Origin: Deltaproteobacteria bacterium
Lineage (GTDB): Bacteria; Desulfobacterota; WTBG01; CAIYCZ01; CAIRTM01
DNA length: 58,890 bases
Assembly: GCA_024276465.1 (NCBI GenBank)
Contig: JAJRXD010000155.1
Coordinates: 1-58,890, forward strand
Direction: 5' to 3'
A model generated the notes under the pieces. The model saw only the letters and a program-made list of their open reading frames with translations, ran no database searches and was not told the DNA's origin. Each line of letters begins with the position of its first letter. Positions within the stretch are counted from its first letter, which is position 1. The position numbers and the translations under genes are program-made. This document shows positions 7,930 through 33,416 of the stretch, piece after piece.

Positions 7930-8026
7930 GAGGGATGCGGGGCTGGCGCCCCCAGCGGGCTGCAAACCCGTTAGCCGGGTACGATTTCTGCCTGGAGTCG
8001 GGTTCGATTCCCACCATCCCTCTCCA
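7930..8026 (+). tRNA. Selenocysteine-tRNA-like tRNA with GCA (Cys) anticodon
   Basis: Folding by eye gives an 8-bp acceptor (GAGGGATG 7930-7937 with CATCCCTC 8015-8022), U73 at 8023 and an encoded CCA at 8024-8026. The D arm is a 5-bp stem (GGGGC/GCCCC) with a 4-nt loop TGGC. The anticodon stem is GCGGG/CCCGT with loop CTGCAAA, so bases 34-36 are GCA (7962-7964). A long variable arm forms (CCGGG 7975-7979 with CCTGG 7991-7995 around a 7-nt loop after two further pairs). The T loop is TTCGATT with stem GGG/CCC plus GT/AC if C7999 is bulged. The 97-nt length, 8-bp acceptor, small D loop and long variable arm are those of bacterial tRNA-Sec, whose loop would be CTTCAAA. One change (U34 to G34) would give this anticodon. 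U73 is a cysteinyl-tRNA synthetase identity base, whereas tRNA-Sec normally has G73. It may be co-transcribed with the upstream polyferredoxin gene. Confidence 0.8.
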
Positions 8027-29091: not shown

Positions 29092-29673
29092 TCACGAATT
29101 TTCCCCCATTGTCTCAATTACTTCCATGGCCTTATCAAGGGCTTGCCTGAGTTTTTCAGGTGATTTGCCACCAGCCTGGGCCATATCATTCTTCCCGCCG
29201 CCCCTTCCTCCTACAACAGGAGCAATTTGCTCAATAATTTTCCGTGCTGAAAACTTTTCTGCAATGTCTTTTGTCACCATGGCAAGAAGGTGAACCCTGT
29301 CTCCATCCTCTGCTCCGAAAACAATAATCCCTGATCCCATTCGATCCCTGATTTTATCTGCGTAGCTGCGAAGCGACTTTGGATCTTTTTCCTGAACCTT
29401 GGTTACAAGCACACTGATCCCTGAAACCTCCTTTGCCATGTCAAGGATTGAGGAAGCCTGTTTTGAAATAAGCTGGTTTTTGAGTTTTTCAATCTCTTTT
29501 TCCAGGTTCTTCTGCCCAGCAGTCAGATGTGCCACCTTATCTGTTAGTCCATTAACATCGCTTTTGAGGAGTCCGGCCAGGCTTTCCAGAATTTCCTCCT
29601 CTTTGTGAATAAAAGAGCAGGCTTCTTTGCCGGTTACAGCTTCAATACGCCTGACACCGGCTGCAATTGCACC
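29092..29673 (-). pseudogene. alaS 3' segment (C-Ala domain) after an in-frame TAA
   Basis: In the alaS frame the codon after ...GIFKITS is TAA (29674-29676) where relatives have Glu. Reading on gives GAIAAGVRRIEAVTGKEA, the normal AlaRS continuation, then a coiled linker (LTAGQKNLEKEIEKLKNQL) and the C-Ala/DHHA1 domain (VGGRGGGKNDMAQAGGK), with no other stop until the natural end. The joined length, about 883 residues, is normal for AlaRS. An in-frame AGGAGG (29595-29600) lies 5 bases before a CTG at 29589, and a GTG at 29535 is another possible start, so a separate C-terminal polypeptide is conceivable. Whether this is a mutation, sequence error, split gene or recoded stop cannot be decided here. 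Confidence 0.7.
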
Positions 29674-31743
29674 TTAACTTGTAATTTTAAAAATCCCAAT
29701 CTCACCTGTTGAATGGATATGGGTTCCCCCGCACAATTCCATGCTGTAATCTGAAATGCTTACAACCCGAACCTCATCTCCATATTTTTCACCAAACAGA
29801 GCTGTTGCACCCATTTCCCTGGCTTCCTTTATTGGAAGCACTTTAATGCTGACAGAGGCATTTTTACGAATGTGTTCGTTTACATGATTTTCAATTTCTT
29901 TCAGGTCTTCTTTTTTGATTGCCTCAAAATGGCTGAAGTCAAAGCGAAGCCTTTCCGGAGTTACAAGAGATCCGGCCTGCTTTACATGATTTCCCAGATG
30001 CTTCCTCAAAACAGAATGGAGGATATGGGTGGCTGTATGGTTATTTGCTGTTGACTGGCGCGCAGTGGAATCCACTCTGAGCAGGGCATCATCCCCCACA
30101 TTAATACGCCCCTTTAAAACCTTTCCCTGGTGAACTGTCAGTTCAGGGGTGGGCTTAACAGTATTCACGACTTCAATTGTAAAATCATTGTTTGAGATTA
30201 CACCCCTGTCTCCTTTCTGACCGCCTGACTCACCGTAAAAGGTGGTATCATCTGTAACAACCTCAATGTTATCCCCCTCGGAGGCAGAATCAACTGGTTT
30301 GCTGTTCCTGATAAGTGTATGTATCCGGGAGGAAACATCATTTTTTTCATATCCGCAGAATGAAACCTTAAGCCCTTTCCTGGTCATGCTTTTGTAAATC
30401 CCCTCTATTTTATCATCGCCGGAACCTTTCCATGCCTGGCGTGCTCTGAGCCTCTGTTGCTGCATGGCCTTCTCAAAACCAGCCTGGTCAATTTCCATTG
30501 CCTGTTCAGAAGCAATATCCGCAGTCAGGTCCAGAGGAAAACCATAAGTGTCGTAAAGCTTGAACGCTACCTGTCCGGGTATAACAGATTTGTTGTTCTT
30601 TTTTAATGCCTCTATCTCTTCCTCAAGAATCCTCAGCCCTGAATCAATCGTTGCGGAAAAGGTTTTTTCCTCATTTAAAACAACCTTGGTGATGTAATCC
30701 CCTGAACTCAGAATTTCCGGGTAGATATCTTTCATCTGTTCAGCAACAATACTGACAGATTCATGAAGGAAAGGCTTTTCAATGTCCAGCATCCTTCCGT
30801 GTCTTGCTGCCCGTCTCATTATTCTTCTCAGGACATAACCCCGTCCTTCATTGGAAGGCAGCACACCGTCTGCAATCAGAAAAGAAATTGCCCTGCTGTG
30901 ATCTGCAATTACCTTCATGGATGTATCATGATCAGTATCTGTTCCATATTTTTTGCAGGAAACATTCTCAACAAAATCAAGAAGCGGTTTGAAAAGGTCT
31001 GTATCATAATTGCTTTTAGCATTCTGAATAACAGCGGTAATCCGCTCAAGGCCCATTCCGGTGTCAATGCTGGGCCTGGGCAGGGGGGTCATTTCACCAT
31101 GTGCATCCCTGTTAAACTGCATAAAAACAAGGTTCCACAGCTCAAGATACCTGTCGCAGTCACAACCGGCTTTGCATTCAGGGCTGCCACAGCTGAAATT
31201 CTCACCCTGGTCAATCAGTATCTCTGAACAGGGGCCGCAGGGCCCTGTATCACCCATTGACCAGAAATTGTCCTTCTTCCCCATTCTGACTATCCTTTCA
31301 GAGGGCAGATCAGTGATGGCATTCCAGATTTTGTAAGCCTCGTCATCTTCCCTGAATATTGTTACCCATAACCGCTCAGGGGAGATTTCCATGATACTGG
31401 TTATAAATTCCCATGCCATGGAAATGGCCTCAGCTTTAAAGTAGTCACCAAAGGAGAAGTTGCCAAGCATCTCAAAGAATGTGTGGTGGCGGGCAGTTCG
31501 GCCAACGTTTTCCAGATCATTGTGTTTGCCACCGGCCCTGACACATTTCTGAGATGAAGCAGCCCTGTTATACTGCCTTATTTCATCGCCTAAAAAAACA
31601 CCCTTGAACTGAACCATGCCGGCATTTGTAAAAAGCAGTGTAGGATCATTCCGGGGAACAAGCGAAGAGCTTTCAACAACTGCATGATCCTTAGCCTTGA
31701 AATATTCTAAAAAATCTTTTCTTATTTCAAATGATGATTTCAC
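29674..31743 (-). CDS. alaS: Alanyl-tRNA synthetase, catalytic and editing part (ends at in-frame TAA)
   Basis: The GTG at 31743 opens MKSSFEIRKDFLEYF, as in other AlaRS. The 689-residue frame holds the class II core (NAGMVQFKGVFLG; GKHNDLENVGRTARHHTFFEMLGNFSFGDYF, a canonical motif 2 region), the tRNA-recognition domain and the editing domain with HTATH and CGGTH zinc ligands. It ends after ...GEIGIFKITS at a TAA, just before the linker to C-Ala. The aminoacylation and editing residues are therefore intact and only the C-Ala dimerisation/elbow-binding domain is detached. recA and recX lie upstream in the usual delta-proteobacterial order. Confidence 0.9.
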   Translation of the reverse strand: MKSSFEIRKDFLEYFKAKDHAVVESSSLVPRNDPTLLFTNAGMVQFKGVFLGDEIRQYNRAASSQKCVRAGGKHNDLENVGRTARHHTFFEMLGNFSFGDYFKAEAISMAWEFITSIMEISPERLWVTIFREDDEAYKIWNAITDLPSERIVRMGKKDNFWSMGDTGPCGPCSEILIDQGENFSCGSPECKAGCDCDRYLELWNLVFMQFNRDAHGEMTPLPRPSIDTGMGLERITAVIQNAKSNYDTDLFKPLLDFVENVSCKKYGTDTDHDTSMKVIADHSRAISFLIADGVLPSNEGRGYVLRRIMRRAARHGRMLDIEKPFLHESVSIVAEQMKDIYPEILSSGDYITKVVLNEEKTFSATIDSGLRILEEEIEALKKNNKSVIPGQVAFKLYDTYGFPLDLTADIASEQAMEIDQAGFEKAMQQQRLRARQAWKGSGDDKIEGIYKSMTRKGLKVSFCGYEKNDVSSRIHTLIRNSKPVDSASEGDNIEVVTDDTTFYGESGGQKGDRGVISNNDFTIEVVNTVKPTPELTVHQGKVLKGRINVGDDALLRVDSTARQSTANNHTATHILHSVLRKHLGNHVKQAGSLVTPERLRFDFSHFEAIKKEDLKEIENHVNEHIRKNASVSIKVLPIKEAREMGATALFGEKYGDEVRVVSISDYSMELCGGTHIHSTGEIGIFKITS

Positions 31744-31909: not shown

Positions 31910-32377
31910 CTAATTATCCTCAGGCAGCCCTCTTATCACTTTACAGATAACATCTGCTGAAAATCCCCTCCTTTGCAGAAAAGAGGCCTGCTTCCTCTGT
32001 GGGGCATGGCCTTTAGCTGAAGGAAAGCGTTTTTTAAGTGCTTTTCCCGCCATGTCTTCTTCACTGAACTGCTGCCATACTTCTCTCTGAACATTTTCAA
32101 TAATGTCTTTGCTGATGCCTTTCTGGAGAAGATAAAGTGCGATCTTTGCCTTTCCCCACCCTCGATATCGGATCAGGGATTGTGCCCACCTGAGGGAAAT
32201 CTCTTTTTCATTTAAATAACCCTGCTGGCAAAGCTTGTTTAATATGCCCTCGATCAACTCTGCTGGAAAGCCCTTTCCTGCAAGTTTTTCTTTCAGCTCC
32301 ATACTGCTGTGAGGGCGGCGTGACAGGAGGTTATATGCGGTATCAAGAGCTTTTTTTGCAGGGGTGTCATTTTTCAT
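31910..32377 (-). CDS. recX: RecX regulatory protein
   Basis: Start at 32377 ([32 protein letters not shown]); this overlaps recA by 11 bases. The 155-residue product has the RecX helical repeats: [18 protein letters not shown], then [19 protein letters not shown], then [11 protein letters not shown] followed by [13 protein letters not shown]-type residues. RecX binds RecA filaments and restrains them. The recA-recX overlap and the alaS gene downstream make the common recA-recX-alaS order. The longer frame from 32410 would run back inside recA, so I reject it. Confidence 0.85.
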
Positions 32378-33416
32378 TATTCTTTTTGCTGTTGCCTGCG
32401 GAATTGTCAACAGGCTTTAAGAGACCTGCTTTTTCCAAAATCCCTTTTTCTATCTCTGAAGCAATCTCAGGATGATCCTTTAAAAAGGTCTTTACATTTT
32501 CTCTCCCCTGTCCCAGTCTGTCCTGTTTATAAGAATACCATGCCCCGCTTTTTTCAAGAATTTCATGGGAAACTCCGCAGTCAATCAGATCTCCTTCTCT
32601 GGAAATACCTTCTCCAAAAATAATATCAAATTCAACCTGACGAAACGGTGGTGCAATCTTATTTTTTACTACTTTAACTTTTGTCCTGTTACCGAGAACA
32701 TTTTCACTGTCCTTTATCTGGCCGATTTTTCTAATATCGAGACGAACCGTGGCATAAAACTTCAGAGCATTGCCCCCTGTTGTTGTCTCAGGGTTTCCAA
32801 ACATTACCCCTATCTTCATGCGTATCTGGTTGATAAATACTACTGCAGTGTTTGAACGGCTGATGGCAGATGTAAGTTTTCTCAGAGCCTGAGACATCAG
32901 GCGGGCCTGAAGACCCATATGTGAATCACCCATATCTCCTTCTATCTCCGCACGCGGCACCAGGGCTGCAACAGAGTCAACTACCAGCACATCTATCCCC
33001 CCGCTTCGAACAAGAACCTCTCCTATTTCAAGTGCCTGTTCACCGCAGTCTGGCTGGGATATCAGAAGCTCATTGGTTTTAACCCCGAGTTTTCGGGCAT
33101 AGGAAACATCAAGGGCATGTTCCGCGTCAATAAACGCAGCAACACCACCCAGCTTCTGGGCCTCAGCAATAACATGAAGGGCAAGGGTTGTCTTTCCCGA
33201 TGATTCAGGCCCAAATATTTCTATTACCCTGCCTCTGGGTATCCCGCCAATTCCCAGCGCTATGTCAAGGCTTAGAGAGCCAGTTGAAATTGCCTGTACG
33301 CCATGAACCAGCACGCCATCTTCTCCCAGCCGCATTATAGCACCTTTCCCAAACTGCTTTTCAATCTGGCTTACTGCCATATCAACAGCTCTTTCCCTGT
33401 TTTGTTCATTAGCCAT
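32367..33416 (-). CDS. recA: RecA recombinase
   Basis: This 349-residue protein has Walker [10 protein letters not shown] (residues 69-77), the Walker [13 protein letters not shown], the L1/L2 regions ([20 protein letters not shown] and [29 protein letters not shown]) and a C-terminal acidic/Lys tail. It promotes homologous strand exchange and LexA cleavage. GGAGGG precedes the ATG by 7 bases. No LexA-type box could be confirmed in the short gap to the thpR gene. Confidence 0.98.

Follow-up and report, generated by a model that had tools for sequence, protein, structure and literature searches.

An in-frame stop in the alaS gene

Is an essential gene that carries a stop codon in the middle of its reading frame a split gene, a recoded gene, a dying gene or a misread one? 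The question is raised by alaS, the gene for alanyl-tRNA synthetase (AlaRS), in a draft genome of a Deltaproteobacteria bacterium. The window, which is the whole stretch of DNA that was analysed, is 58,890 nucleotides long. The alaS reading frame lies on its minus strand at positions 29092-31743 and was identified by the NCBIfam alaS profile and by its translation. Its upstream neighbours are recX (31913-32410, minus strand; Pfam RecX_HTH1-3) and recA (32370-33416, minus strand; Pfam RecA, 468 bits). The order recA-recX-alaS, all on the minus strand, is the usual arrangement.

Read from 31743 to 29092, the frame contains exactly one in-frame stop, a TAA at 29676-29674, and both flanks are otherwise intact, as a first-pass annotation of the sequence had described. 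In a profile search of the whole genome, NCBIfam alaS scores 1031.5 bits in a match that covers model positions 1-847 and includes one TAA. The same annotation named Glu as the interrupted residue, and the homologues agree: in 103 of them, the column of the stop holds 99 Glu, 3 Asp and 1 gap, so that Glu is expected at this near-invariant position. A TAA can be reached from a Glu codon by a single base change.

The assembly that was searched comprises 4.1 Mb in 181 contigs and is 95% complete with 4.4% contamination. The check for a second alaS that had been suggested was run by profile search, and neither a second alaS nor a free-standing editing protein was found in the 4.1 Mb; the other profile match was thrS. 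The alaS stop is suspect because AlaRS is indispensable and the assembly has a single alaS.

Position of the break within AlaRS

The part of the frame upstream of the stop (29677-31743, minus strand) encodes 689 amino acids that comprise the catalytic domain, the tRNA-recognition domain and most of the editing domain. Pfam tRNA-synt_2c matches there with 732 bits. The downstream part (29092-29673, minus strand) encodes 193 residues that comprise the end of the editing domain, a linker and the C-Ala domain, which is matched by Pfam DHHA1 with 67.5 bits. The break had been placed between the editing and C-Ala domains, and this placement is wrong. The editing domain itself is cut because Pfam tRNA_SAD reaches only profile position 31 in the upstream part (positions 1-31 of 44), with the match ending one residue before the stop. 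In the homologue alignment, the conserved GVRRIEAVTG segment that ends the editing domain lies downstream of the stop. The TAA at 29674-29676 (minus strand) thus interrupts the editing domain and does not fall at a domain border. An AlaRS split at this codon would have its editing damaged.

The possible internal start

Just past the stop, AGGAGG stands on the minus strand at 29595-29600, 5 nt ahead of an in-frame CTG, and had been proposed as an internal Shine-Dalgarno sequence. The motif and its spacing are as described; a role as a start signal does not follow from them. The window contains 32 copies of AGGAGG, compared to a chance mean of 24.8 (sd 5.2), and 11 of 100 shuffles contained at least 32. 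Three copies lie within alaS on the alaS strand. The copy at 29595-29600 encodes Lys-Glu-Glu-Glu, as part of K-E-E-E-I-L in the alaS frame, and the segment is not conserved when compared with close relatives. It is ordinary coding sequence at chance frequency. The nearest in-frame ATG, GTG or TTG past the stop is 47 codons on.

Relatives of the interrupted genes

Inspection of relatives at this codon, which had been recommended, was carried out. Among 57 related genomes, of which the nearest are of the same family only (the set holds no genome of the same species or genus), none has an internal stop in alaS. Internal stops in thrS, ileS and sucC, which are also interrupted in this draft (see below), are likewise absent from the compared relatives. 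The stops aside, these genes are well preserved. At columns that are invariant in all compared relatives, alaS deviates at 2 of 219, thrS at 0 of 173, ileS at 1 of 153 and sucC at 3 of 147, which is similar to the deviations of the closest relatives. The four are not decaying: each is a working gene in which a single codon is wrong.

Interrupted genes elsewhere in the draft

In the whole-genome profile search, thrS also looked short, and this prompted a wider reading of the genome. A 1.37 Mb sample of the genome was read in stretches for stops with coding sequence on both sides, and the candidates were then tested by homology, in a screen that used non-overlapping genes. About 19 stop interruptions were found, or ~14 per Mb, many of them in conserved or indispensable genes. 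Sixteen are TAA, two are TAG and one is TGA.

The interrupted thrS (L002:163-2106) has a TAG at a column where 16 of 17 relatives have Leu. A TAA takes the place of Glu in sucC (L168:17610; Glu in 8 of 8), of an invariant Ser in gdhA (L219:3225) and of an expected Glu in lon (L151:11523). For ileS (L168:13233; TAA), an alignment or domain continues across the stop, and the same is true of the genes for NrdD, a sodium:solute symporter, a DedA/VTT protein, RACo, a HAMP domain protein, a GH130 phosphorylase and NikR and of one further conserved gene (all TAA), as well as of nnrD (TAG) and a CAAX protease gene (TGA). A ParB-like gene has two TAA codons, where Gln and Lys are expected, again with an alignment or domain across them. 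For a slipin gene (TAA), the evidence is coding potential only, and the Pfam match ends at the break. No single amino acid accounts for the replaced residues. Glu, the commonest, is expected in alaS, sucC and lon, whereas the residue is Leu in thrS, Ser in gdhA, and Gln and Lys in the ParB-like gene.

Clear frameshifts are few. The one convincing example is an apparent frameshift at L187:12327 (plus strand) in a conserved gene of ~738 aa, whose two sides have 56% and 63% identity to the homologue in the closest relative (G004).

In-frame TGA codons of the selenocysteine type, in a DsbA-like gene of this genome and in FdhA of the control, were regarded as ordinary selenocysteine codons and excluded. 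The DsbA-like protein (L214:8246, plus strand) reads FIDFQ*PYC, where Cys is usual at the TGA, and is probably a selenoprotein. Separately, two in-frame TAG codons (L184:17195 and L184:16244, minus strand) divide a long CHAT-TPR-CsgG frame, which may represent either a single interrupted gene or three separate genes that share the frame.

The same procedure was applied to three drafts of the same family as a control and gave about 1 interruption in 572 kb. At the rate of the genome studied here, one or fewer would be seen in the control with P = 0.003. The excess of interrupted conserved genes over the related drafts is what errors in a draft consensus predict. The sole control case seen is a single in-frame TAA at L264:18753 in the closest relative, in a conserved gene whose homologue has Gln.

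The search for decoding machinery

A suppressor tRNA had also been proposed as something to look for. Across the whole ~95% complete assembly, no tRNA that would read UAA or UAG was found among the 41 RF00005 matches or with RF01852, with anticodons assigned by ARAGORN. Each of the 41 RF00005 matches either carries an ordinary sense anticodon or is a tRNA-Sec, and no tRNA-Glu with a UUA anticodon is present among the RF00005 and RF01852 matches of the assembly. The Glu, Gln, Lys, Tyr and Leu tRNAs were drawn as cloverleafs and checked for 4-bp anticodon stems; their anticodon stems are normal. Release factors RF1 (L279) and RF2 (L278) are both intact, with the GGQ motif. TAA terminates 127 of 273 long frames, and in-frame TAA is missing from the vast majority of genes, with about 2% of genes affected. 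Pyrrolysine use at UAG was rejected, since PylS gave only sub-threshold cross-hits in the genome, one of them in thrS.

An unusual tRNA lies in the window itself. At 7930-8026 (plus strand), ARAGORN calls a 97-nt tRNA-Cys (GCA) that has the body of a tRNA-Sec and matches RF01852 with 49.4 bits, above the gathering score. With its GCA anticodon and an apparent U73, it agrees with the selC* tRNA-Cys reported by Mukai et al. 2017 (reviewed in PMC7609411). The genome also carries an ordinary tRNA-Cys and a tRNA-Sec (UCA), and no selB-like gene was found among the three genes upstream and two downstream of the unusual tRNA.

A probable error in the draft consensus

The alaS TAA is most likely an error in the draft consensus, or the base of a rare strain. 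We infer this from the many indispensable genes that are cut in the draft together with the finding of no machinery to decode the stops. A false consensus base, whether from sequencing, assembly or low coverage, or taken from a rare strain, would have changed a codon for Glu to TAA. Error fits best because similar interruptions recur in many unrelated conserved genes here and are rare in drafts of the same family (~14 per Mb vs about 1 in 572 kb), and of the options listed in the first-pass annotation, a sequencing or assembly error is thus the one that accounts best for the data. The pattern resembles consensus errors in metagenome-assembled genomes: in both, essential single-copy genes that are otherwise intact have isolated stops scattered at random over conserved positions, and these are absent from relatives. 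It differs from them in a strong TAA bias and in the scarcity of clear frameshifts.

The bias is the less comfortable part of this explanation. Because 16 of the 19 stops are TAA, the spectrum of errors would have to be skewed. Under equal substitution rates the bias has P = 0.0003, and with a predominance of transversions to A or T it has P = 0.02-0.06; only in the latter case is it tolerable. The stops are not significantly uneven in their spread over contigs (P = 0.12). The missense load that such an error rate implies for alaS, thrS, ileS and sucC is too small for detection. A MutY-defective mutator, as a source of G:C to T:A changes, was considered and rejected: the proteins returned by the search were all Nth-like and scored under the MutY cut-off, and the Leu-to-TAG change in thrS is off-spectrum. 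The two TAA codons reported in the MutY search precede an endonuclease III that is itself intact.

Other readings of the stop

A correctly assembled base could still represent a recent nonsense mutation of alaS in the sampled population, carried by a dying or minor lineage. One base change suffices for it, and the gene is otherwise intact; should the draft combine several strains, individual harmful alleles may enter its consensus. However, intact copies of thrS, ileS, sucC, lon and others are missing as well, and no lineage could bear all of these losses without suppression. That nonsense mutations were fixed simultaneously in several essential single-copy genes is not credible, and overall we consider a recent mutation unlikely.

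Nonsense suppression or a dual meaning of UAA and UAG, through a suppressor tRNA or leaky termination, would yield full-length AlaRS, ThrRS, IleRS and other proteins. Otherwise-intact genes with stray stops are expected under suppression as well as under error, and the number of interrupted yet conserved genes, the TAA bias and the prominence of Glu among the replaced residues are all in keeping with it. The tRNA survey provides no decoder, although a suppressor may have been missed in an assembly that is 95% complete; anticodon stems are normal, PylS is absent and both release factors are intact. The replaced residues are too varied, including the invariant Ser of gdhA and the Leu of thrS, and one of the stops is a TGA. 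TAA also retains its terminating role, and ~2% of genes affected would be far rarer than in true reassignments. Suppression is therefore quite improbable, and recoding of UAA, which had been listed with it, is disfavoured by the same missing tRNA and mixed residues. There is a slim chance that stray UAA (and UAG) codons build up across essential genes because some tRNA or ribosomal feature, absent from the assembly, suppresses them with useful efficiency, with UAA still ending most genes.

A functional two-piece AlaRS would consist of the upstream part, ending at the TAA, and a C-terminal part made from an internal start. Both parts of alaS are conserved, and a natural split is known: the AlaRS of Nanoarchaeum equitans is composed of α and β pieces with their border in the tRNA-recognition domain, which leaves the editing domain whole in β (PMC10036535). 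Two consecutive pieces would be the likeness if the two-piece reading were true. Here, the cut instead falls inside the editing domain, before GVRRIEAVTG, without a plausible start signal: the AGGAGG ahead of the CTG is at chance level and the first conventional start codon is far off. The split is seen in 0 of 57 relatives, and cuts occur in many other, unrelated genes of this genome. With its editing domain cut and its proposed start signal at chance level, a two-piece enzyme is highly improbable.

A standing reassignment of UAA to Glu in this lineage can be set aside almost entirely: although Glu is expected in alaS, sucC and lon and a trypanosomatid code with a dual UAA exists (in Blastocrithidia, UAR is reassigned to Glu and UAA is also a stop; PMC12153298), so that in-frame UAA at Glu positions with UAA still ending genes is common to both, the present case differs in the ~2% of genes affected, the mixed residues (Ser needed in gdhA, Leu at the TAG of thrS, a TGA in the CAAX protease gene) and the missing cognate tRNA-Glu with a UUA anticodon, and RF1 and RF2 are both intact and the vast majority of genes lack in-frame TAA. 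Neither a bacterial UAA-to-Glu code nor a single suppressor is adequate because the residues are mixed and all three stop types occur.

Meaning of the interruption

Taken as biology, the alaS stop would mean a split essential synthetase or bacterial recoding of UAA, and the rest of the genome supports neither. In a draft with ~14 interrupted conserved genes per Mb, a single in-frame stop should not, without reads, be taken as evidence of recoding, a split gene or a pseudogene. If the stops were real, they would make this bacterium a rare case, open to testing, of tolerance to nonsense codons across a whole genome. Most likely, the interruption is not a true feature of the gene in the living organism, in which the usual recA-recX-alaS locus would accordingly yield a single normal AlaRS of full length.
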